A stretch of 44,664 nucleotides of DNA from Syntrophorhabdales bacterium (GTDB lineage: Bacteria; Desulfobacterota; Syntrophorhabdia; Syntrophorhabdales; WCHB1-27), in the NCBI GenBank assembly GCA_035541455.1, contig DATKNH010000154.1, positions 1 through 44,664 of the forward strand, written 5' to 3'. Each line of letters begins with the position of its first letter. Within the stretch, counting starts at the first letter, position 1. The position numbers and the translations under genes were made by a program. Shown one piece after another: positions 20,913 to 33,051 of the stretch. The notes under the pieces are model-generated. The model ran no database searches, was not told where the DNA came from, and saw only the letters and a program-made list of their open reading frames with translations.

Positions 20913-22340
20913 ATGTCCGGCATCCGGTCTATTCTCGACATTGGCAAGACAGCGCTCTCAGCCAATGAGCTGGCCCTTCAGACCCTCTCTCACAACGTGG
21001 CGAATGTAGATACTCCCGGGTACTCGCGGGAAGAGACTGTGCTCCAGACAGCCACGCCAGAGCCTGCTGCCGCGGGCATGTTGGGCAATGGGGTACGGGT
21101 GGAACAGGTCAGGCGGTTTGTTGATAACTATCTCAACAATACCATAATGAACAAAAACACGGATCTGCAGTTTCAGAAGACCTCGGAACAGTATCTGGGG
21201 CAGATGGAAGCGATTCTCAATGAAGACAACTCGCAGCTCACGCAGAACTTGACTGGATTTTTCAATGCCTGGCAGGATCTTTCCACGGACCCCACGAGTG
21301 TCCCGGCCAGGGTCGCTCTTGAGGCGCAGGGCGAAAATTTCGCAGGGAGCGTACGTAGCGTGTATAGCGACTTGCGCGGGCTGCAAAATCAGGCCAACAA
21401 CAGCGTAGCTCAGGAAGTGGACAACATCAACAGAATGACAACCACGATCGCGAGCCTCAACCAGCGCATCTCAGAAGCTGGAAAGGATGGCCAGGCGAAT
21501 GACTACCTGGATCAGCGCACGGAGTTGCTCAAAGAGCTCTCTGGTGAACTGGGCATTGTCTCCTTCCAGGATGAGCAGGGTGATATCACTGTTCTGGCGG
21601 CCGATGGAAAGCCACTCGTCGACGGAAATATTCATTGGAATCTGAAGGTATCGGATCCGAATGCAACCGGATCCTTTTCGGTCAATTGGGAGGATTCCAA
21701 TGGTAAGCTGTCAGATATCACGTCTGACATACAAACCGGCACCCTTGGATCCCTTCTCTACGAGCGCGACGTGGATGCGCAAGGCTTCATCGACCAGCTC
21801 AATGCTCTGGCTCAAACAATCACCACTCAGGTGAACCAGATTCACCAGACCGGGTACAATCTGAATCAGACCACGGGCATCTCTTTCTTCAAGCCCCTCA
21901 CGCAGAATTTTGCTGCCGACATGGCGGTCAGTGACGATGTCAAGAATGATGTCAGTAATATCGCAGCCACTTCCTCCCTCGACCGACCGACCGATAATGA
22001 TGTCACTCTTAAGATTGCCGGATTGGCGGATGCCAGTCTGCCCTTCACTGCGGGGGGTACTACCACTCATGCGAAACCAGTGGATTTCGTCTCCGCAATA
22101 CTCAGTAGTGTAGGACAACTGACCAAGAATGCCCAGGACCTGGTGACCTACCAGACCAACACCATGAATGTCCTGACCCAGCAGCAGGCAGCTGTATCCG
22201 GCGTATCTCTCGATGAAGAAATCACAAACCTGATGCAGTACCAGCGGGCGTATCAGGCATCGGCGAAACTGATTTCAGGTGCAGACGACCTTATGGTCAC
22301 ATTGCTCGGGATGGTAGGTACCGCGAGTAGTGCGGCCTAA
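20913..22340 (+). CDS. flgK: Hook-associated protein 1 FlgK
   Basis: FlgK is the first hook-filament junction protein. The 475-residue product has the conserved N terminus (LDIGKTALSANELALQTLSHNVANVDTPGYSREETVLQ), the DNYLNNTIMNKNTDLQFQKTSEQYLGQMEAILNE coiled-coil segment, a variable middle and the C-terminal GVSLDEEITNLMQYQRAYQASAKLISGADDLMVTLLGMV helix. The length is typical. GAAGG precedes the ATG within the end of flgN. Confidence 0.97.
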   Translation: MSGIRSILDIGKTALSANELALQTLSHNVANVDTPGYSREETVLQTATPEPAAAGMLGNGVRVEQVRRFVDNYLNNTIMNKNTDLQFQKTSEQYLGQMEAILNEDNSQLTQNLTGFFNAWQDLSTDPTSVPARVALEAQGENFAGSVRSVYSDLRGLQNQANNSVAQEVDNINRMTTTIASLNQRISEAGKDGQANDYLDQRTELLKELSGELGIVSFQDEQGDITVLAADGKPLVDGNIHWNLKVSDPNATGSFSVNWEDSNGKLSDITSDIQTGTLGSLLYERDVDAQGFIDQLNALAQTITTQVNQIHQTGYNLNQTTGISFFKPLTQNFAADMAVSDDVKNDVSNIAATSSLDRPTDNDVTLKIAGLADASLPFTAGGTTTHAKPVDFVSAILSSVGQLTKNAQDLVTYQTNTMNVLTQQQAAVSGVSLDEEITNLMQYQRAYQASAKLISGADDLMVTLLGMVGTASSAA

Positions 22341-22362: not shown

Positions 22363-24834
22363 ATGCGAGTAACGAGTAAACTGGTCTTTGACCAGATGAA
22401 GAGCAACCTGCAGAGCGCCATCAGCGGGATCAACAAGATCCAGGGAGAGATATCTTCCGGGAAGAAAATAGAGCGTCCATCAGACGATCCGGTGATTTAC
22501 ACCAGAGCCACCCTGGTCGATGCGCAGAAGAGCTCAGACACGCAGCTCAATCGCAATCTTTCGAGCATCAAGACGCTCGGGACCATGTATGAGAATACGT
22601 TTAATAATGTCAACGACCTGCTCACCCAGGCAAAGCAGCTGGCCCTTACGTACGCGGATGACACCGTGTCTCCCGCTGATCGGCAAACAGGAGCGCAGGC
22701 GGTTGAGAATATCATCGAGCAGCTCGTAACGCTGGGCAACACCAAACTGAATAACACCTACATCTTTGGGGGCACAAAAGCAAACCAGCCCCCCTTCGGG
22801 CTGAACCCGGACTACTCGGTTGATTACAACGTGCGGCTGGGAGCCCGCCAGCCGGTAAATACCTATGTCGATGAGGGGGAGGTAGACACGACCGGATTCT
22901 CCGGCCAGGAGCTCTTTTACGACCAGAGCAAAGCGTTGTATGAAAACCCTGCCAACTCCTATAGGGGCGGTACGTTTAGTGACTCGAGTTACTTCGCCTT
23001 TGTGATCGACGCCAAGAATAATACCCTCTATCTCAACGGGTCTCCGGTCGTGCTTGATAACGGTACCTACCGTGGATCGGAGCTTGCCGGTGAGATCCAG
23101 TCAAAATTGGGTCCGGGGTACTATGTAACCTATGACAGTGCATCAGGCCGTTTTGCAATACAGAATCAGACCGGACAGCCGGTCACCTTCAACTGGTCTG
23201 ATGGGCGGTCAACTGCTGCAAAGACTCTAGGGTATGATCGTCTCGACTCGACTGTCAGCAATGGTGACAGTGACGTGAGCGATGTTGAGGCGGGAGGGGG
23301 TTCCATCCTCGTAAAGGTCACGCAGAACGGAAGCACCACGGGACCGCTGCAGGAGCGGGCGCGGTACAGGTACTCGCTGGATGGAGGCCAGACGTGGTCA
23401 GCCGAAGAGATGATAGCGAATTACGGACGGGCCACCACAGCCGCCGAGTTTGTGGTGGACTCATCGAATAATACGGTGTACGAGAATGGCTCTCCGGTGA
23501 ATCTCACTGCAGGGACGTACACCGGGGCAGCGCTGGCTACAGAGATAGCGACGCGGCTTAATGCGCTTCAAGCCGGGCACACGGTGACCTACGATCCTGC
23601 AACAATGAAGTTCACCATCACGAACGGAACCGGTAGCACAATCAATCTTAACTGGTCAAATCCTCTGGCCACCGCCGGTTCCCTGCTAGGGTTCAATGCA
23701 CAGGACCAAGGCCTTGTGACGGGAGTCAGCACCACGAGCGACGTTCAAGCGGGCCTTTCGATGGGCGCCATCATGCAAGTGGGTTACCAGGTTGATCCAA
23801 GCACGGACCAGCTTGTCGTTAATGACGGCGTGAGCGATCACACGATTACCCTGAACGCAGGAGTTTACGGTGGAGCCGGACTTGCTACAGAGGTCCAGAC
23901 AGAGCTGAACAACACGCTCGGTGCAGGCGCCTTCGCAGTATCTTTTGACGGAGTCACGAACAAGTTCACCGTACAGAATACAAGCGGAGGTACCACCTAC
24001 ACGCTGAAATGGTCCAGCGGCAGCACCACAGCAGGGGCGCTGTTGGGATTCGGTACTACGGATAGCGTGGTTGCACCGGGTGGCAGCGCCGTCAGCGACG
24101 TTGCGACTGATCCACGGAACACCATTTACGAAAACGGAGCGCCGGTAACGCTCGATGCAGGCACGTACACTGCCTCAGGTCTTGCCGCAGAGATTCAAGC
24201 TAAACTCGGCGCGGGTTTTCAGGCCTCGTACGACGAGACTTCCAGACAATTCAGCATCACCAACAATAGCGGAGTTCCTGTTATCTTCAATTGGTCTAAT
24301 CCCAGTACGACCCTGGGCGCTATGCTTGGTTTCGATAACCGCGACAGCACTGTTGCGAACGGAGAGAGTGCCCGGAGCACCTTCGACGCGGGCATGATGA
24401 TCAACGGGACGAACGGGGCTGACTCGATCAACAACCGGCTTAAGATAGCGTTCGGATCCAGCGGTTCTCTGATCAGCGGCGACAACTTTGTGATCAAAGA
24501 TCTGGACATATTCGGTTTCCTCAAGAATTTGAAAGAATCCCTGGAAAATAACAATACCACCGGGATCAAGAGTGCAATCCAGGACATGGACCTCAGTCTT
24601 GATGTGCTGAACAAAGACATCACCAAAGTCGGCATGTTCAACAGCAAAGTGGAGACGCTGACCCAGCAAAACACGAACCGGGACTATCTATATACCACGA
24701 TGATGTCGCCGATGACGGATGCAGACATCACGCAACTCACGACAGACCTCACGTCCTTGATGAACAGCTATCAAGCATTACTCTATTCTATGGCTAAGAT
24801 CCAGAATCTTTCAATCATGGATTACCTGAGGTGA
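22363..24834 (+). CDS. flgL: Oversized hook-associated protein 3 FlgL with four internal repeats
   Basis: FlgL is the second junction protein and the base on which flagellin polymerises. FlgL is usually about 300-400 residues; this one has 823. The N-terminal 150 residues are standard (MRVTSKLVFDQMKSNLQSAISGINKIQGEISSGKKIERPSDDP and TLGNTKLNNTYIFGGTKANQPPF), and the C-terminal 150 are also standard (TKVGMFNSKVETLTQQNTNRDYLYTTMMSPMTDADITQLTTDLTSLMNSYQALLYSMAKIQNLSIMDYLR). Between them are four related blocks of about 95-110 residues (211-312, 362-464, 472-581, 582-677). They are predicted to be exposed on the outer surface of the junction. No frameshift or base-composition break is evident. 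Confidence 0.93.
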   Translation: MRVTSKLVFDQMKSNLQSAISGINKIQGEISSGKKIERPSDDPVIYTRATLVDAQKSSDTQLNRNLSSIKTLGTMYENTFNNVNDLLTQAKQLALTYADDTVSPADRQTGAQAVENIIEQLVTLGNTKLNNTYIFGGTKANQPPFGLNPDYSVDYNVRLGARQPVNTYVDEGEVDTTGFSGQELFYDQSKALYENPANSYRGGTFSDSSYFAFVIDAKNNTLYLNGSPVVLDNGTYRGSELAGEIQSKLGPGYYVTYDSASGRFAIQNQTGQPVTFNWSDGRSTAAKTLGYDRLDSTVSNGDSDVSDVEAGGGSILVKVTQNGSTTGPLQERARYRYSLDGGQTWSAEEMIANYGRATTAAEFVVDSSNNTVYENGSPVNLTAGTYTGAALATEIATRLNALQAGHTVTYDPATMKFTITNGTGSTINLNWSNPLATAGSLLGFNAQDQGLVTGVSTTSDVQAGLSMGAIMQVGYQVDPSTDQLVVNDGVSDHTITLNAGVYGGAGLATEVQTELNNTLGAGAFAVSFDGVTNKFTVQNTSGGTTYTLKWSSGSTTAGALLGFGTTDSVVAPGGSAVSDVATDPRNTIYENGAPVTLDAGTYTASGLAAEIQAKLGAGFQASYDETSRQFSITNNSGVPVIFNWSNPSTTLGAMLGFDNRDSTVANGESARSTFDAGMMINGTNGADSINNRLKIAFGSSGSLISGDNFVIKDLDIFGFLKNLKESLENNNTTGIKSAIQDMDLSLDVLNKDITKVGMFNSKVETLTQQNTNRDYLYTTMMSPMTDADITQLTTDLTSLMNSYQALLYSMAKIQNLSIMDYLR
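22993..24393 (+). repeat. Four tandem protein-level repeats inside flgL
   Basis: Blocks at 22993-23298, 23446-23754, 23776-24105 and 24106-24393 each follow the same order: a D..NNT.Y.NG.PV strand pair, L.AGTYTG..LA.EIQ.KL, G..VTYD....F.I.N.SG, then a FNWS....TA..LLGF motif and an SDV.AG ending. They are similar in protein but diverged in DNA. The third has the least typical first strand. They probably arose by duplication of one domain. Confidence 0.85.
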
Positions 24835-24910: not shown

Positions 24911-25135
24911 ATGCTCGTGTTGACAAGGAAGTCGGGAGAAGCCATAAACGTTGGAGATGAGATTACCGTTACCGTGTTAGAGGTCAGAGGCAATCAGGTC
25001 AGGCTAGGCATTCAAGCCCCCCACAACGTCATCATCCACCGTAAGGAACTTTACGAGAAAATTAAGAGCGAGAACCTCAGGTCGTTAGGGTTATCCATAG
25101 ATGACTTCAAGAAGATCAGAGAGGGGCTGCGATAA
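24911..25135 (+). CDS. csrA: Carbon storage regulator CsrA
   Basis: CsrA is a dimeric RNA-binding protein that blocks translation by binding GGA-containing hairpins. The 74-residue product has the conserved MLVLTRKSGEAINVGDEITVTVLEV strands and the RLGIQAPHNVIIHRKELYEKI end with the RNA-contacting arginine (residue 44). A 14-residue C-terminal extension follows. It sits directly before fliW (the stop abuts the next ATG). In bacteria with this pair FliW sequesters CsrA, and CsrA represses flagellin. Likely binding sites lie in the fliC leader at the end of the window. Confidence 0.97.
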   Translation: MLVLTRKSGEAINVGDEITVTVLEVRGNQVRLGIQAPHNVIIHRKELYEKIKSENLRSLGLSIDDFKKIREGLR

Positions 25136-25516
25136 ATGATGCTTTTCGAGACATCAAGGTTTGGACGGCTGGAGGTGGCTGAGGACAAAGTCATCATGTT
25201 TCCTGCCGGCCTTCTCGGTTTTCCTCACGTAAAGAGGTACGTGCTGCTTGACTACGAGGATACGCCCGTCAAATGGCTCCAGGCTGTCGATGACCCTGAT
25301 GTAGCATTCATCGTGATGCAGCCGACGCTGGTCGCTCAAGACTACAATCTTGCGCTGGATGATGCGACGCGTCACACGCTGAAACTCGAGACAGAAGAAG
25401 ACCTGGCAATACTGACGATCGTGCGTGTTGAGGAAGGTAAGCTTCTGGCCAATCTGAAAGGGCCGCTGCTGTTTAACTCTCGCCTCAAATTAGGCCTTCA
25501 AGCCGTGCTGGAGTAA
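25136..25516 (+). CDS. fliW: Flagellar assembly factor FliW
   Basis: FliW binds either flagellin or CsrA, so translation of flagellin follows its export. The 126-residue product has the typical opening (RFGRLEVAEDKVIMFPAGLLGFPHVKRYVLLDYEDTPVKWLQAVDDPDVAFIVMQP) and the LANLKGPLLFNSRLKLGLQAVL end. Two ATG codons begin the frame (25136 and 25139); either may be used. It is the last gene before the sigma-54 promoter of the sugar cluster. Confidence 0.97.
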   Translation: MMLFETSRFGRLEVAEDKVIMFPAGLLGFPHVKRYVLLDYEDTPVKWLQAVDDPDVAFIVMQPTLVAQDYNLALDDATRHTLKLETEEDLAILTIVRVEEGKLLANLKGPLLFNSRLKLGLQAVLE

Positions 25517-25571: not shown

Positions 25572-25634
25572 GTGACACTGGAAGACTGCCTTTCTTCATC
25601 AGAATGCGGGTTTCAAGGGAGTAAGTATGTTTGA
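25572..25634 (+). CDS. Possible 20-residue leader peptide before the pseB-like gene
   Basis: A GTG at 25572 lies a few bases after GGAGGG and opens a 20-codon frame (VTLEDCLSSSECGFQGSKYV) that ends at a TGA overlapping the pseB ATG (25627) by eight bases. The arrangement would allow translational coupling. It could equally be chance; I have no homology support. Confidence 0.25.
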   Translation: MTLEDCLSSSECGFQGSKYV

Positions 25635-26661
25635 CGACAAAGTGGTTCTTATTACGGGCGGGACCGGGTCTTTCGGGCAAAAATTCACGGCATATCTGTT
25701 CGCCAACTACAAACCTCGAAAAGTTGTTATTTTCAGCAGGGACGAATTCAAACAGTTCCAAATGTCGGCAGACTTTCACGAGCCGGAATTCGAGGTGCGC
25801 TACTTCATTGGCGACATAAGGGACAAGGAACGGCTCTACCGGTCCTTCGAGAGCGTTGATTACGTGATCCACGCGGCTGCGCTCAAACAGGTGCCGGCAG
25901 CAGAGTATAATCCGTTCGAGGCGGTCAAGACGAATATACTGGGCGCACAGAATATCATTGATGCTGCGATCGACAGGGGCGTGAAAAAGGTAATAGCCCT
26001 CTCCACGGACAAAGCGGTGAGCCCCATCAACCTGTATGGCGCTACAAAGCTCGCCATGGAAAAGCTTCTGATAGCGGCAAATGCGTACGCCGGAAACAAA
26101 GAGACCTGTTTTTCAGTGGTGAGATACGGGAATGTTATAGGGAGCAGGGGCAGCGTTATTCCTTTTTTCAAGAAGTTTGTTAACAGCGGCGAAGGTAAGC
26201 TTCCGATAACGGACGAACGAATGACGCGTTTCTGGATTACGCTCAGGCAGGGAGTAGAACTGGTCGCCAAGGCTGTGCATGAAGCTGTGGGAGGAGAAGT
26301 TTTTGTTCCCAAGATTCCCAGTATGAGAGTTCTTGATCTCGCACGAGTCATCGCTCCCGACGCCGATCACCAGGTAATCGGCATACGTCCCGGTGAGAAG
26401 TTGCATGAAAGCCTGATATCAAAAGACGAGGGCAGGAACACGGTCGACATGGATCAGTACTACGTAATACTTCCCCTTTTCGCGAACGGAACCAAGAGAT
26501 TTCACAAGTACAGCAAGTGCCGCAGAATGGGGGAAGGATTTTCCTATCGCAGCGACAAAAATGACCGCTGGCTCAGGGCGGAAGATCTCAGCCGCATGGT
26601 GGCTGAATTTGAGTTTGGGGAACATGATACCGTACAGCAGACAGCTCATAGAGCAGGATGA
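25627..26661 (+). CDS. pseB: NDP-N-acetylhexosamine 4,6-dehydratase, PseB-like
   Basis: PseB converts UDP-GlcNAc to a 4-keto-6-deoxy sugar, the first step towards pseudaminic-type nonulosonic acids. The 344-residue product is an extended SDR with TGGTGSFG (10-17), IGDIRD, HAAALKQVPAAEYNPFEAVKTN and the active-site segment S-T-D-K with Asp128, Lys129, Tyr137 and Lys141, the pattern of inverting dehydratases. Substrate nucleotide (UDP or GDP, as in LegB) cannot be told from sequence. Its end overlaps the aminotransferase by 38 bases. Confidence 0.85.
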   Translation: MFDDKVVLITGGTGSFGQKFTAYLFANYKPRKVVIFSRDEFKQFQMSADFHEPEFEVRYFIGDIRDKERLYRSFESVDYVIHAAALKQVPAAEYNPFEAVKTNILGAQNIIDAAIDRGVKKVIALSTDKAVSPINLYGATKLAMEKLLIAANAYAGNKETCFSVVRYGNVIGSRGSVIPFFKKFVNSGEGKLPITDERMTRFWITLRQGVELVAKAVHEAVGGEVFVPKIPSMRVLDLARVIAPDADHQVIGIRPGEKLHESLISKDEGRNTVDMDQYYVILPLFANGTKRFHKYSKCRRMGEGFSYRSDKNDRWLRAEDLSRMVAEFEFGEHDTVQQTAHRAG

Positions 26662-27868
26662 TATAGAGGCGGTAAATAGTGTTCTGCGGTCGGACTTTCT
26701 CACGCAGGGTCCGGTTGTTGAATCCTTTGAGTCAGCACTGAAATCGTATTGTGGAGCCCGGCATGCGGTGCTTTTCTCCTCCGGCACAGCAGCCCTCCAT
26801 GCAGCTTACTTCGCGGCGGGTGTGTGCGGAGGTGACGAAGTCGTTACGTCACCAATCACCTTTGCGGCGACCGCAAACGCAGCGCTTTACCTCGGTGCTA
26901 ACCCCGTGTTTGTTGACGTTGAGCCTGATACGGGCAACATGGAGGTTGAACATCTCCGGCAGGCGGTCACCGAAAGAACAAAAGCTATCGTGCCGGTACA
27001 TTTTGCGGGACACCCTGTTGACCTTGAAGGGGTGTTTGCTGTTGCCAGGAAATCCAGAGCAATTGTCATTGAGGATGCCTGTCATGCATTGGGAGCGCAC
27101 TACAGGGCGAGCGGCTCAAGGTTCAAGCGTCAAGGCTCCGGTGAAAAACCTGGAGAGTCGGGGAACTCGGACCCAGATACATGGACGAAAATCGGTGGTT
27201 GTGCCTATTCGGATATGACCGTCTTCAGTTTCCATCCGGTCAAGCAGATCACGACGGGTGAGGGTGGGGCAGTACTCACAAACAGGGATGATCTTTGCGA
27301 TAGGCTCCGCCTCTTTCGCACGCACGGCATTACCAAAGACCCCTCTAAATTTCGCATGACCCATGATCCGTGTCCCGAGCCTCAACTCTGTGTCGGTGAC
27401 TGGTACTACGAGATGCAGGAGCTTGGTTTCAATTACAGGATTAGCGATATCCATGCAGCCCTTGGAATGTCACAGCTTCGCAAGCTCGACATCTTCGTGG
27501 CAAGAAGGAGAGAGATAGCGGAACGCTACCGGGTCGCCTATGCAGAAAATCCTTTTTTTGAAACGCCTCCGGAGAGAAGCTACGCAAGGTCTGCATATCA
27601 TCTCTATCCCATAAGACTCTCCCGGGCGCTGGTGGACAGGAAGCGGGAAATATTCTCCGGGTTGAAAGATTCAGGGCTCGGGGTCCAGGTGCATTACCTG
27701 CCTGTCTATCTTCAGCCCTACTACCTGGAAATGGGCTATAGACGGGGGTTGTGTCCTGCGGCTGAGCAATTTTACGAGAGAGAAATAAGCATTCCTCTTT
27801 ACCCGGCTATGGATGACGAGACTGTGAACACCGTTATCAACACGCTACTTGGGAGTTTACGGATATAG
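26624..27868 (+). CDS. pseC: PLP-dependent nucleotide-sugar aminotransferase, PseC-like
   Basis: This enzyme transaminates the 4-keto sugar made by the upstream dehydratase. The 414-residue product is a DegT/DnrJ/EryC1-family protein with the PseC-typical start MIPYSRQLIEQDDIEAVNSVLRSDFLTQGP, ALHAAYFAAG, EDACHALGA and FSFHPVKQITTGEGG with PLP-binding Lys207. The start at 26624 is chosen because it gives this conserved N terminus. Residues about 162-187 (SGSRFKRQGSGEKPGESG region, 27107-27184) are a hydrophilic insert next to the conserved YSDM segment, not usual in PseC. Confidence 0.87.
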   Translation: MIPYSRQLIEQDDIEAVNSVLRSDFLTQGPVVESFESALKSYCGARHAVLFSSGTAALHAAYFAAGVCGGDEVVTSPITFAATANAALYLGANPVFVDVEPDTGNMEVEHLRQAVTERTKAIVPVHFAGHPVDLEGVFAVARKSRAIVIEDACHALGAHYRASGSRFKRQGSGEKPGESGNSDPDTWTKIGGCAYSDMTVFSFHPVKQITTGEGGAVLTNRDDLCDRLRLFRTHGITKDPSKFRMTHDPCPEPQLCVGDWYYEMQELGFNYRISDIHAALGMSQLRKLDIFVARRREIAERYRVAYAENPFFETPPERSYARSAYHLYPIRLSRALVDRKREIFSGLKDSGLGVQVHYLPVYLQPYYLEMGYRRGLCPAAEQFYEREISIPLYPAMDDETVNTVINTLLGSLRI

Positions 27869-28762
27869 ATGTCAGCGAGACTGATCCTTGGAACCGCCAA
27901 TTTCGGGCTTACGTACGGCATAGCAAATAAGCGCATGTTCTCGGAAGGAGAAGCATTTGCGATACTGGAGAAAGCAGTTGAGGCTCACGTGACGGGAGTC
28001 GATACGGCTCAGGGGTATGGCGAGGCGGAGAAAATTCTCGGCAGATTTTTCAGAATGCACGGCAAGGTCTTCGACGTTACAACCAAACTTCCGGATCGCG
28101 AATATCTCTCCGTTGTAGACGTGGAATCTCAGATAGAGAAAAGCCTGGTGCATCTTGGTTTGGGGCGAATAGATACGCTGCTCGTGCACAGTTCGAGCAC
28201 ATTTGAACGTCATGGGGACGTGCTGTTGACCGCACTCGAGCGGTGCACAGCTCAGGGCCTTATCGGAACGTATGGTCTCTCCGTATATCATCCTGACGAT
28301 CTGCGGAGAGCTGCTGAGAAGGCACGGAAGGCAGGGTGTCGCATCGGCGCGGCACAACTGCCATTAAACCTTTTTGATCAGCGCTTCTTGAAAGATGCGC
28401 ATCTGGCTCAATTTCGATCTGCAGGCATCACACTGTATGGCCGTTCTCTTTTTCTTCAAGGCCTGTTCTTCATGGACAGCAAGAGACTTCCCGGGCACCT
28501 CCGTCAGGCGGCACCCAAGATAGAGAGCCTGAAGCATCTCGCAAAACTCCATGATACGTCCATCGAAGCATTGGCGCTTCTTTTTGCGCGTTCGTCTGGT
28601 GTTGATTACGTAGTCGTGGGTGTTGACAGTGTGGCCCAGCTGGAAAGGAATGCCGCGCTTATGGCAGCCGGCGGAGACCTGTTGCCAGAACTGAAAGCCA
28701 GCTTTGATGCGCTTGAAATCTATGATGAGGAGATCATTCTGCCTTATAGATGGAAGCAATGA
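27869..28762 (+). CDS. Aldo/keto reductase of the sugar cluster
   Basis: A 297-residue NAD(P)H-dependent oxidoreductase of the aldo/keto reductase fold. The catalytic tetrad is complete: Asp45 and Tyr50 (DTAQGYG), Lys73 (TTKLP) and His107 (LLVHSS). The start follows the pseC-like stop directly, so the two are probably co-translated. Aldo/keto reductases are not part of the classical Pse or Leg pathways. It may reduce a keto group on the sugar or on a substituent. The substrate is unknown. Confidence 0.85.
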   Translation: MSARLILGTANFGLTYGIANKRMFSEGEAFAILEKAVEAHVTGVDTAQGYGEAEKILGRFFRMHGKVFDVTTKLPDREYLSVVDVESQIEKSLVHLGLGRIDTLLVHSSSTFERHGDVLLTALERCTAQGLIGTYGLSVYHPDDLRRAAEKARKAGCRIGAAQLPLNLFDQRFLKDAHLAQFRSAGITLYGRSLFLQGLFFMDSKRLPGHLRQAAPKIESLKHLAKLHDTSIEALALLFARSSGVDYVVVGVDSVAQLERNAALMAAGGDLLPELKASFDALEIYDEEIILPYRWKQ

Positions 28763-28805
28763 GTTTATAAAGGCTTATTAGAAACATGCGACGGAGAGGA
28801 TACCA

Positions 28806-29885
28806 ATGATTCTGTTTGTGGTTGATGAAGACAGGGAAAGATATCGGGGGCGAGCTGTTCGCGCTTCTATCCTGGCACACGCCTGTCTCATGCAGGGACT
28901 GGAAGTCTCGTTCATGTGTGCAGAACAGGACGTGCATGACTGCCTGACGAGGGAAGGTTCTTCAGGCGTGCGTGTCGTAGACAGGGAGCAATTAATCTTT
29001 GAGGCCGCTCTTGAGCGACCGACTCTCCTCGTGTGGGACGCGGCCAGGCCGTTGACCCACAAGGAAGTAACGCTTTTTCATCAACATGACACGTTCGTCG
29101 TTGAGTTTGATGCACCCGATGGTGAAAGCCGCGCCGATGAGGTGGTAAATGGCTTTGAATCCACCCTTCGCAGTGCCCGTGGACGCCAATACAAGCTTAT
29201 CGGGCCCGGCTATCTTGTGGTTGATAAGTGTTTCACCAACGCCAGGGAATGGCGGAGAGCTTCAGCGTTCTTAGGGAACGGCCTGGACCTGTTCATCTGC
29301 CTCGACGGCGTTGAGCCTGAGATCGTGACATCAACCCTCGATGTTCTTGCAGATATCCCTGCGTGCCGTTCAATGCAGATACGAATTATGGCCGGGGCGG
29401 ATGAAAAGAGAGGAAGGGCCGTACAACGGAGTTTCTCCTCGTTTAAGAATCTTCAGCTTTATACAGGAACCAACTCCGCCCTCATCGCTCAGCTGATGAG
29501 ATTTTCGCAGCTTGGCATCATATCCTTCGGTCCTCTCCTTATTCAGGCTATGGCCGCGGAGCTTCCTGTGCTTATGATCAACAGCACCGAGGGAGATGAG
29601 CGGTACGCGGCCAGGGTGCTCAACGGTGTCTTTGCCGGCGCAGGGCTGACCTTTGGGTATGCCCAGCACATTGACTGGGGAATGTTTCAGAGAAAGCTCG
29701 CATTTCTCCTGGAACGACCAAGAGAGATAGAGCGGATGCAGGAAGCTACTCACCGGTTGGTGGATGGTCAGGGAGCCCAAAGGATAGCGAGGTTTATCCA
29801 GAGTCACCGGAAGATACGAGGTATGGGTCACGGAGATTGGGTCGCCGCAGAAGGCCCACGGACAATAATTCCCCTCACCCGATAG
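28806..29885 (+). CDS. PseG/SpsG-like protein lacking the catalytic GxGH motif
   Basis: The 359-residue product has a GT-B-like two-domain layout as in PseG (UDP-sugar hydrolase). The C-terminal half has LIAQLMRFSQLGIISFGPLLIQAMAAELPVLMINSTEGDE, resembling the family's GTSIYELAYLGVPTI region. The N-terminal strand-loop that should read G-x-G-H reads RYRGRAVRASILAHACLMQG, so the catalytic histidine is missing. It may be a non-hydrolytic relative, for instance a binding or transferase protein. AGAGGA lies before the ATG. A canonical PseG lies at 33118. The family assignment is moderate. Confidence 0.55.
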   Translation: MILFVVDEDRERYRGRAVRASILAHACLMQGLEVSFMCAEQDVHDCLTREGSSGVRVVDREQLIFEAALERPTLLVWDAARPLTHKEVTLFHQHDTFVVEFDAPDGESRADEVVNGFESTLRSARGRQYKLIGPGYLVVDKCFTNAREWRRASAFLGNGLDLFICLDGVEPEIVTSTLDVLADIPACRSMQIRIMAGADEKRGRAVQRSFSSFKNLQLYTGTNSALIAQLMRFSQLGIISFGPLLIQAMAAELPVLMINSTEGDERYAARVLNGVFAGAGLTFGYAQHIDWGMFQRKLAFLLERPREIERMQEATHRLVDGQGAQRIARFIQSHRKIRGMGHGDWVAAEGPRTIIPLTR

Positions 29886-29918
29886 ACATGGAGGCGGGAT
29901 GTTACTGAGAGGCGCATC

Positions 29919-30929
29919 ATGAGGATAGGCAGCACTGAACTGGGGAAGGGCAGGGCTTACGTGATTGCCGATGTGGGGTCAAACTATAACGGCAGCCTTG
30001 AAATGGCAAAGGAGTATATCTATGCGGCGAAGGAGATCGGGGTAGATGCGGTCAAATTCCAGACTTACGAAGCCGCGACCCTTCTCAATCCGTTCAAACC
30101 GGGTGGTGAGCCCTGGCAGGCGTACGACGTGGTGAAGAAATACGAATTGCCCTTGTCATGGCATCAGGAATTGTTTGATCACGCAGAGAATATGGGCATC
30201 GAGTTTCTTACGACCCCCTTTGACCTGTCCGTCCTGGATGAGCTTAGCCGCATCGGCATAAGGGCTTTCAAGATAGCATCCGGTGATCTTACCTTCAGCC
30301 CTCTTCTGCGCAAAGTAGGTTCTTTCGGTAAACCTGTGCTGCTTTCCACCGGTATGGCTGATCTGGAGGAGGTGAGGTTGGCAATCCGGACGCTGCAGGA
30401 AAGCGGCAGCCGGCACATTGCTCTTCTCCATTGCGTTTCCAACTACCCACCAAGGTTTGAGCAGGTGAATTTGAAGGCGATGGTCACCATGGCGGAGAGG
30501 TTCGACGTGCCTGTGGGGCTGTCGGACCACACGTCCGGGAACACGACGGCACTGGGAGCAATCGCTCTTGGCGCTTCAATCATTGAAAAGCATATCACCA
30601 TGGACCGCCAGCTGGGGACCCCTGATGCGCCGTTCGCTATGACCGTGGCTGAGTTCGGCCGCATGGTCACGGATATTCGCAATCTGGAACGAGCGCTGGG
30701 TGACGGGGTCAAAGTCCCGGCCGAGGATGAGCGCGAGGAGCGCACCTGGGCGCGCAGAGGGATATACGCGCGGGTCGATATAGAAGCAGGCGGGCCTCTG
30801 ACAATGGAAAACGTGAAGTTCGTGCGGCCGGAAAACGGCGTACCCGCAAGCGAGTGGTCAAGATTCGAGGGGAAGGTCTTGAGAGAGACCCTCACGAAGG
30901 ACCGGCCGCTGAAAAGGGACTACATATGA
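29919..30929 (+). CDS. Nonulosonic acid synthase, NeuB/PseI/SpsE-like
   Basis: This family condenses phosphoenolpyruvate with a six-carbon amino sugar to form a nine-carbon nonulosonic acid. The 336-residue product has the (beta/alpha)8 domain with ADVGSNYNGSLEMAKEYIYAAKEIGVDAVKFQTY, GIEFLTTPFDLSVLDEL, FKIASGDLTF, LLHCVSNYPP, GLSDHTSG and EKHITMDR, and a C-terminal antifreeze-like SAF domain (about 275-336). The motifs are complete. The sequence does not say whether the product is a pseudaminic, legionaminic or other isomer, so I leave the symbol empty. It overlaps the next gene (ATGA). Confidence 0.92.
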   Translation: MRIGSTELGKGRAYVIADVGSNYNGSLEMAKEYIYAAKEIGVDAVKFQTYEAATLLNPFKPGGEPWQAYDVVKKYELPLSWHQELFDHAENMGIEFLTTPFDLSVLDELSRIGIRAFKIASGDLTFSPLLRKVGSFGKPVLLSTGMADLEEVRLAIRTLQESGSRHIALLHCVSNYPPRFEQVNLKAMVTMAERFDVPVGLSDHTSGNTTALGAIALGASIIEKHITMDRQLGTPDAPFAMTVAEFGRMVTDIRNLERALGDGVKVPAEDEREERTWARRGIYARVDIEAGGPLTMENVKFVRPENGVPASEWSRFEGKVLRETLTKDRPLKRDYI

Positions 30930-31705
30930 GCCGTGACAAGGTCAAGGCGATAGTGCAGGCACGCATGGGCTCAACGCGTCTTCCGGGAAAGATTCTGAAG
31001 CCCTTGGCGGGAAAGCCTGCACTCTGGCATGTGGTCAACAGGCTTAAACGGGCCGGGAGCTTGAAAGAAGTGGTCGTGGCCACAACGACGAGCCCTGAAG
31101 ACGATGTGGTCGTTAGCTATTGCGAGGAGCACGGGATCAAATGGTTTCGTGGTAGCGAGAATGACGTACTGGACCGCTACTACCAGGCTGCAAAGGAATT
31201 CGGCGCGGATCCAATCGTCCGCATCACAGCCGACTGCCCGGTTATCGATCCCCAAATAGTTGACGAAGTGGTTGAAGGGTTCTTCGCAGGCGGGTACGAC
31301 GTTTATGCGATGGGGGGCGAGTTCCCGGATGGACTCGATTGCGAATGTTTTTCATTTGCGGTGATCGAAGACACTTGGAAATATGCGGTTTTGCCCTCAG
31401 AAAGAGAGCATGTGGGTGTATATCCGGGCAAGCACAAAGAAAAATACCGGGTGGGTAGCTACACCAAGTTCACCGGCCTCGCACATCATCGCTGGACCCT
31501 TGATGAAGAAGCCGATTTACACTTCCTGCAAGAGCTCTACGAACGGCTCGATAGACCGGGCTCTTGTTTCGGGACAAGAGAGATACTGGTATTGCTCGAC
31601 CGGGAGCCTGAATTGATGGCCATCAACAGCGGGATCATCAGAAACGAGGGGCTCTTGAAATCCCTCACACAGGATGAAACCTTTCTCAAGGAGAAAAGTC
31701 TATGA
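30926..31705 (+). CDS. Cytidylyltransferase, SpsF-like
   Basis: The 259-residue product is a nucleotidyltransferase of the SpsF/NeuA group that would attach CMP to the nonulosonic acid. The nucleotide-binding motif is AIVQARMGSTRLPGKILKPL, followed by VVVATTTSPEDDVV, WFRGSENDVLDRYYQAA and VRITADCPVIDPQIVDEVV. The ATG at 30926 overlaps the synthase stop; a longer reading would intrude into that gene. It is the only cytidylyltransferase in the cluster, so it most likely does the CMP activation. It overlaps the aminotransferase gene by four bases. Confidence 0.85.
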   Translation: MSRDKVKAIVQARMGSTRLPGKILKPLAGKPALWHVVNRLKRAGSLKEVVVATTTSPEDDVVVSYCEEHGIKWFRGSENDVLDRYYQAAKEFGADPIVRITADCPVIDPQIVDEVVEGFFAGGYDVYAMGGEFPDGLDCECFSFAVIEDTWKYAVLPSEREHVGVYPGKHKEKYRVGSYTKFTGLAHHRWTLDEEADLHFLQELYERLDRPGSCFGTREILVLLDREPELMAINSGIIRNEGLLKSLTQDETFLKEKSL

Positions 31706-33051
31706 ATCGTCGAGCAGCCCTGCATGAGATGAGAGAGGACGTAAGCAAAGAACGTGGCCGGCAAGTGCCGCCAAGAGACCTCACGCAGTCGGAATACTGG
31801 TGGGCAAAAGCAAAAGAGATCATTCCTCGCGGTACCCAGACGCTGAGCAAGGGCCCTGATCAGTTTGTCGACGGGGTGACACCCAAATACCTGGACCACG
31901 GCCAGGGATGCCACGTCTGGGATGTGGATGGCAACGAGTATATCGACTATCCTATGGCGCTTGGCCCCATCCTGCTCGGCTATAACTATCCACCTGTGGT
32001 GGAGGCCGTGACGAGGGAGATTCGAAAAGGAACGACGTTCACACTGATGAGTCCCTTGGAGGTAAGGCTTGCGGAGCTGTTGGTCGAAGTGATCCCCTGC
32101 GCGGAGATGGTGCGGTTCGGGAAGAATGGTGCGGATGCCACCATGGCCGCTATACGCATTGCCAGAGCGTACACAGGCAGAGACCACGTCGCCTTCTGCG
32201 GCTATCACGGCTGCCACGACTGGTACGCGATCACCACGTCTCTGAATAGAGGCATACCGAGATTTAATGCGGGGCTCGTCCACCCCTTCGAATACAACAG
32301 GCCGGAGACGTTGGAAGCGCTCTTATCGCTCTATCCCGATAAGATTGGAGCAGTCATAATGGAAGTGCCCGCGGAGGAGCCGCGAGATAATTTTCTGGAA
32401 CGCGTTATCGAAATCGCTCATAAGCATGGAGCGCTCTTTATCCTCGACGAAACCTGCACCGGATTCCGCTGGTCTCTGGGGGGTGCGCAAGAATACTACG
32501 GTGTTGTGCCTGACCTCGGTTGTTTCGGCAAAGGGATGGCGAATGGATTCTCTATCTCTGCCATTGTGGGAAAGAAAGAGTTTATGAAGGAGCTGGACGA
32601 GATATTTTTTTCCATGACTTTTTCAGGGGAGACGATCGGCCTGGCTGCATCAATCGCCACGGTCAGTGAGATTCGCAAAAAGGGCGTTGTCGATTGTATC
32701 TGGAAACAGGGCAGGAAGTTGAGAGACGGGCTTTATAAGATAAAAGAGGAATTGAAAGTCAACGTCGAGATCATAGGTCATCCACCACGCTCGGGCTTTC
32801 TCTTTAGAGACGCTTCTGGAAATGAGTCTCTTGAGATTAAGAGCCTCTTCTTGCAGGAAACTCACAAGAGGGGGATTCTGTTTGGAGGGCCCGTCTACCT
32901 CTCCTTCTCGCATACGGACGATGATATCGAACGGACATTGGATGCGTCTTTTGAGGCAATGAGGGTTGTCAAGGATGCAGCGGACGAGGGCAGCGTGGAC
33001 AGATTTATGGAAGGAAAAAAGATAGGAACCGTCTATAGGTCACGGCGATAG
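31702..33051 (+). CDS. Class III aminotransferase, glutamate-1-semialdehyde aminomutase-like
   Basis: The 449-residue product is a fold-type I PLP enzyme with the GSAM-like order of motifs: IPRGTQTLSKGPDQFVDG, VWDVDGNEYIDYPMALGPILLGYNYPPV, RFGKNGADATMAAIRIARAYTGR, FILDETCTGFRW and the PLP Lys277 in FGKGMANG. GSAM itself acts in haem biosynthesis and would not be expected in an operon of this kind. Here the enzyme likely aminates or isomerises a sugar intermediate. Its start overlaps the SpsF-like stop. About 60 bases of gap follow, with a weak inverted repeat AGTCCCAT/ATGGGACT. Confidence 0.85.
   Translation: MNRRAALHEMREDVSKERGRQVPPRDLTQSEYWWAKAKEIIPRGTQTLSKGPDQFVDGVTPKYLDHGQGCHVWDVDGNEYIDYPMALGPILLGYNYPPVVEAVTREIRKGTTFTLMSPLEVRLAELLVEVIPCAEMVRFGKNGADATMAAIRIARAYTGRDHVAFCGYHGCHDWYAITTSLNRGIPRFNAGLVHPFEYNRPETLEALLSLYPDKIGAVIMEVPAEEPRDNFLERVIEIAHKHGALFILDETCTGFRWSLGGAQEYYGVVPDLGCFGKGMANGFSISAIVGKKEFMKELDEIFFSMTFSGETIGLAASIATVSEIRKKGVVDCIWKQGRKLRDGLYKIKEELKVNVEIIGHPPRSGFLFRDASGNESLEIKSLFLQETHKRGILFGGPVYLSFSHTDDDIERTLDASFEAMRVVKDAADEGSVDRFMEGKKIGTVYRSRR

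Follow-up and report, generated by a model that had tools for sequence, protein, structure and literature searches.

The window analyzed here, a stretch of 44,664 nucleotides from a Syntrophorhabdales bacterium, encodes a hook-filament junction protein, FlgL, whose outer region is enlarged by four diverged copies of one domain, and this four-block protein is a large, old case of an already known kind of enlarged FlgL. It is probably best read as an orthodox FlgL with a D2-type region of four beta domains of about 100 residues each, which would form a collar bracing the junction. The gene (flgL, 22363..24834, plus strand) lies directly after flgK and comprises an open reading frame of 823 aa without an internal stop, the product of which scores 183.7 bits against the whole-protein NCBIfam FlgL model TIGR02550 (cut-off 127.2). 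Identification as FlgL, as had been claimed earlier, is further supported by a Flagellin_N match at residues 11-139 (4.1e-11), by solved FlgL structures that match the N-terminal part, and by the joint occurrence of helical ends and a neighboring flgK. The ends of the protein are indeed normal, since blockless relatives of 295 aa align solely to residues 1-187 and 704-823. The N-terminal part (D0/D1; residues 1-190; 22363..22932, plus strand) is delimited by Flagellin_N, the 295-aa relatives, and helices in a low-confidence model, and the C-terminal part (D1/D0; residues 704-823; 24472..24834, plus strand) by the match to the same relatives. Between these ends lies an inserted stretch of about 516 residues (188-703) holding the four like domains, at the site where outer (D2-type) domains insert in solved FlgL (PMC6155364), in keeping with the surface position that had been proposed for them.

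The surrounding genes follow the order flgK-flgL-csrA-fliW, all on the plus strand. FlgK (20913..22340; TIGR02492, 346.5 bits) is a blockless protein of 475 aa, and a block profile run over the window found no match outside the flgL frame. CsrA (24911..25135) is matched above cut-off by both NCBIfam PRK01712 and TIGR00202, and FliW (25136..25516) by NCBIfam FliW models, which fall under their own cut-offs (best 4.1e-31). Directly behind this group, at 25627-33051, stand pseudaminic-acid-type sugar genes encoding PseB, PseC, a NeuB/PseI-like synthase, a cytidylyltransferase-like protein, and an aminotransferase. The genome carrying the window (G000) is a 3.9-Mb draft rated 97% complete, in which a genome-wide search returned no second Flagellin_N match and no Flagellin_C, FliD_C, or FlbT match; a congener (G001), unlike G000 as searched, has both flagellin and FliD, and genes of the fliC/fliD type may simply be missing from the G000 draft.

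The repeated units, each of some 95-110 aa, were delimited by block alignment and profile. Block 1, which was also modeled alone, spans residues 209-308 (22987..23286, plus strand), and is followed by a linker of approximately 50 residues, RYRYSLDGGQTWS, with a YRYSLDGGQTW motif (residues 309-358; 23287..23436, plus strand), which was recognized by alignment with 606-aa relatives, where its equivalent sits between both blocks. Block 2 (residues 359-461; 23437..23745, plus strand), block 3 (residues 471-580; 23773..24102, plus strand), and block 4 (residues 579-675; 24097..24387, plus strand) then form a tandem, so that the four are not all contiguous; block 3 is the most diverged copy and coincides with the part of the frame matched by the DUF3383 profile, and the start of block 4 abuts its end. 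The earlier observation of four related blocks is borne out by homology far above chance: local BLASTP among the blocks gives 37-55% identity with E-values from 1e-11 to 5e-28, and profiles built from any three blocks score the fourth at 74-112 bits, compared with a best of 14 bits for 500 shuffles of that fourth block. In full-length alignment the blocks share 36-49% protein identity and 47-53% DNA identity, and at four-fold degenerate codons common to them the third base agrees in 17-40% of cases, which is about random. Synonymous sites are thus saturated and the duplications old, as had been concluded from the divergence of the DNA. An assembly artefact was ruled out, as the blocks differ in DNA and the congener possesses blocks 1 and 4 together with the end of block 3. 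Pfam matches of the frame to USH1C, CFAP65, fn3, and BNR do not reach cut-off and were regarded as chance hits.

Structure prediction of a single block (block 1, positions 22978-23298, from a 28-sequence alignment) yielded a confident model (pLDDT 90.6, pTM 0.84) comprising strands, one long helix, and further strands. The full-length FlgL model is far poorer (pLDDT 60.1, pTM 0.26) and was rejected as a means of placing the blocks relative to the ring; each of its four blocks nevertheless shows the same predicted strand-helix-strand order, and the blocks do not, therefore, appear to fold as unrelated domains. In the block 1 model, strands flank a single helix on either side, an arrangement that could fit the beta-grasp type, and no textbook beta-grasp protein occurs among the fold matches listed for the model. 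The best of those matches are giant-virus capsid proteins, namely the capsids of EhV-201 (Z 11.5, rmsd 2.7 over 101 residues) and PBCV-1 (Z 9.9, rmsd 2.1 over 94), and among predicted viral structures algal-virus and klosneuvirus proteins match at E 1.4e-6 and weaker. This likeness is one of fold without sequence support (DUF5901 reaches 0.012 at best), and common origin with the capsids is not claimed. Residues 183-276 of the Vibrio FlaA filament also resemble the block (Z 7.1, rmsd 2.8 over 83 residues), although a Z of 7 may reflect just a common arrangement. Flagellin_IN (PF07196) and flagellin D2 domains occupy a similar place in exported axial proteins, but no block matches the PF07196 profile, to which no match was found in this genome either.

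Comparison of the blocks with domain databases pointed to DUF3383 (PF11863), the profile of which matches 8 of 16 and 15 of 40 single blocks (E<=0.01 for the 15, best 7e-7). The matches, where positions are listed, are confined to about positions 135-202 of 493, with some 60 positions involved, and the sheath core covered by the whole profile is absent from the blocks; summed over the frame, the score is 37.2 bits (vs. 34.9), yet hmmscan of the complete FlgL does not list DUF3383. The family consists of contractile phage tail sheaths (its records carry the annotation 'tail sheath'), in which the matching region is an optional insert: sheaths of approximately 380 residues do without it (phage loci L109-L117). 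The sheath of phage E217 (gp31) matches the block profile at E 0.008 and the block fold with Z 6.1 (rmsd 3.4 over 91 residues), and profile-profile comparison (hhalign) of block with sheath aligns the correct region at a probability of 22-34%. The link to the DUF3383 sheath insert has weak sequence support and moderate fold support, and a common origin of block and insert is likely but not proven. Other searches were negative: tblastn of a single block consensus against phages gave no match, none of the viral contigs scanned with FlgL matched, and a 16-block profile found no PDB sequence at E 1. A 40-block profile did match a mosquitocidal toxin in the PDB (5.5e-4), but this candidate was set aside as a repeat match of about 45 residues that is absent among the fold matches listed, lower-ranked sheath matches covering the domain better.

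Domains of this kind have already been described in such proteins. A beta-grasp domain was reported in FliD, FlgL, FlgK, and Mu-like phage-tail proteins (Burroughs et al., 2007; PMC1949818), and the block shares with it, as described in the relevant passages of that paper, the hosts FlgL, FlgK, and FliD and may share a phage-tail relative as well. Given this agreement in hosts, the block is probably the same domain and probably already described; the same passages leave four copies per FlgL and copies in FlgE unmentioned. DUF3383, moreover, has been ranked as the seventh commonest domain of flagellin variable regions (PMC5595980). The earlier note had named prior description of the domain, next to a uniform length in close relatives, as something that would refute it, and to judge from these accounts the domain does appear to be largely described already. 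Enlargement of FlgL is itself not confined to the present lineage, as Campylobacter jejuni FlgL (750 aa; PDB 9gsx) also carries a bulky outer D2 (PMC12221982); its sequence matches the present FlgL in the conserved terminal part alone, and no repeat of the present block was detected in it.

Block number varies considerably among relatives. Within the same order, FlgL without a block (295 aa) occurs in many genomes, and forms with one block (about 500 aa), two blocks (about 606 aa, in most Syntrophorhabdus-like genomes), three blocks (706 aa, L018), and four blocks (823 aa, the present frame) complete a range of 295 to 823 aa, such that close relatives are by no means uniform in length. Across the phylum, the 150 listed FlgL frames have a median of 313 aa: 134 are at most 430 aa, 15 are of 500-1000 aa, and one is of 1663 aa, these being open-frame lengths that slightly overestimate protein length. 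The earlier statement that the present protein has about twice the usual length fits these figures. The longest frame (L076, G121:C499, from base 1861) stays open for at least 1663 aa until its contig ends and contains eight matches to the block, and 823 aa is for this reason large but not exceptional. In the three-block protein (G038:C236), residues 207-401 of 706 contain a complete block nested in another, the nested copy scoring 138.5 bits and the two halves of its host, read jointly, 81 bits, with the insertion point between the host block's helix and the next strand. A single genome, G043 (Delta_02), was also observed to encode a pair of FlgL paralogs (L068 and L071), either of which has two blocks. 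The congener's FlgL is split over two contigs, its ends being 76% and 81% identical to those described here; block 1, block 4, and the last part of block 3 are preserved on these contigs, and the middle is lost where the contigs stop. Together with the saturation of the DNA, the presence of these blocks indicates that the four-block expansion is old.

The block is likewise not restricted to FlgL. Its profile finds matches in 35 of the 395 genomes of the phylum sample, in proteins that were assigned by reading their N- and C-terminal sequences rather than by per-protein family search: FlgE-type proteins (e.g., L035, L043, L046, L078, and L081), FlgK (L033, L034, and L037-L042), FlgL (L037, L038, and L080), and FliD (L056, L073 from a Nitrospirae genome, and L077 from the congener). 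These hook, junction, and cap proteins carry one to five copies, and the FlgK frames of G078, G247, and G328 are longer than 1100 aa.

FlbT is a regulator of Caulobacter-type flagellins. Its gene was found in 16 of the 47 genomes of the order (G003, G015, G022, G025, G028, G030, G032-G035, G038, G040, and G042-G045), all of which have a block-bearing FlgL; it is thus present in 16 of 20 genomes with blocks in FlgL vs. 0 of 14 blockless ones, an association whose P of about 2e-6 presupposes independent genomes, whereas most of these come from a few genera. The FlbT genomes carry a divergent flagellin, mostly of 380-390 residues, whose gene in one example (L069:6262-8474) comes after flgL, with FlbT and FlaF next in line, and FliD_C is unrecognised in nearly all of them, with one weak match in G028. 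The block-bearing exceptions that lack FlbT are the present genome, the congener, G027, and G037, and the congener combines a canonical flagellin with a FliD that itself bears a block. The association may reflect shared ancestry alone, and it is unlikely, if conceivable, that a single module has spread over FlgE, FlgK, FlgL, FliD, and contractile phage sheaths with its copy number in FlgL following filament type, such that FlgL with blocks would go with a Caulobacter-type filament (divergent flagellin, FlbT, FlaF, no recognisable FliD) in most of the order. Were this true, the collar could help the junction to fit a different filament or could replace cap function.

Given FlgL biology, in which 11 FlgL stack upon 11 FlgK as a ring at the junction and expose their D2 domains (PMC12221982), the four-block protein is naturally read as forming a decorated collar. 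By analogy, a single ring of eleven such subunits would lie between FlgK and the filament, with their helical ends inward and 44 blocks standing outward, and the inserted chain, at about 57 kDa per subunit, would add approximately 0.6 MDa per ring. Its likely job would be to brace or stiffen the junction through bulk and through lateral contacts between domains. Such a role is suggested by the outer-domain networks of some flagellin filaments, which depend on these contacts for their stability in viscous media (PMC10256154; PMC8931119), and accords with the reinforcement of the junction proposed for the FlgL D2 inserted in D1 (PMC6155364). Counting against this reading, the FlgK of this genome offers no block as a partner, and a collar must be dispensable for a junction as such, many relatives of the same order being blockless. 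Of the earlier interpretation, the FlgL identity, the single domain family, and the old expansion are supported, and the collar is a suggestion drawn from the known ring.

The chief rival explanation, which we regard as rather unlikely, is that an exposed FlgL loop merely tolerates duplicated modules, whose number drifts near-neutrally without specific function. The wide variation in block number among relatives, the block nested within a block and the FlgL with at least eight, and the retention of FlgL, flagellin, and often FliD by blockless relatives all speak for such drift, but the two-block state is stable across many species, and all four copies here have kept their conserved core residues despite saturated synonymous sites, which argues that each copy stayed selected for folding. 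Ranked third, and improbable, is the proposal that the blocks are not a mechanical brace but a binding or glycan-carrying surface serving adhesion, phage shielding, or camouflage. It can draw upon the PseB, PseC, and NeuB/PseI-like genes that begin right after flgL-csrA-fliW, upon the occurrence of the block fold in exposed virus surface proteins, and upon flagellin outer domains, which have known roles in adhesion and immune evasion (PMC10256154); nevertheless, modification of FlgL does not follow from its closeness to sugar genes, no match of a block to a lectin or adhesin family stood out, and FlgL, at about 11 copies per flagellum, is a poor site compared with flagellin. That the protein is instead a flagellin-like filament subunit, its blocks coating the entire filament, is very improbable: although the G000 draft yields no other Flagellin_N, Flagellin_C, or FliD_C match, the FlgL match is at equivalog level, the gene order is flgK-flgL-csrA-fliW, and the congener, with FlgL ends 76-81% identical, has a separate canonical flagellin and FliD. 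On the preferred account of a junction collar, copy number would shift through module duplication and insertion, once, in the three-block relative, within another copy.

Finally, the hook-filament joint, commonly pictured as a simple adaptor, can bear surface domains on the scale of a large flagellin, and the relatives described here offer a natural series of 0, 1, 2, 3, 4, and 8 copies with which the mechanics of outer domains at the junction could be measured. The main interest of the finding lies in the module's wider distribution, as its sharing among hook, junction, and cap proteins makes the outer flagellum resemble a kit of shared parts.
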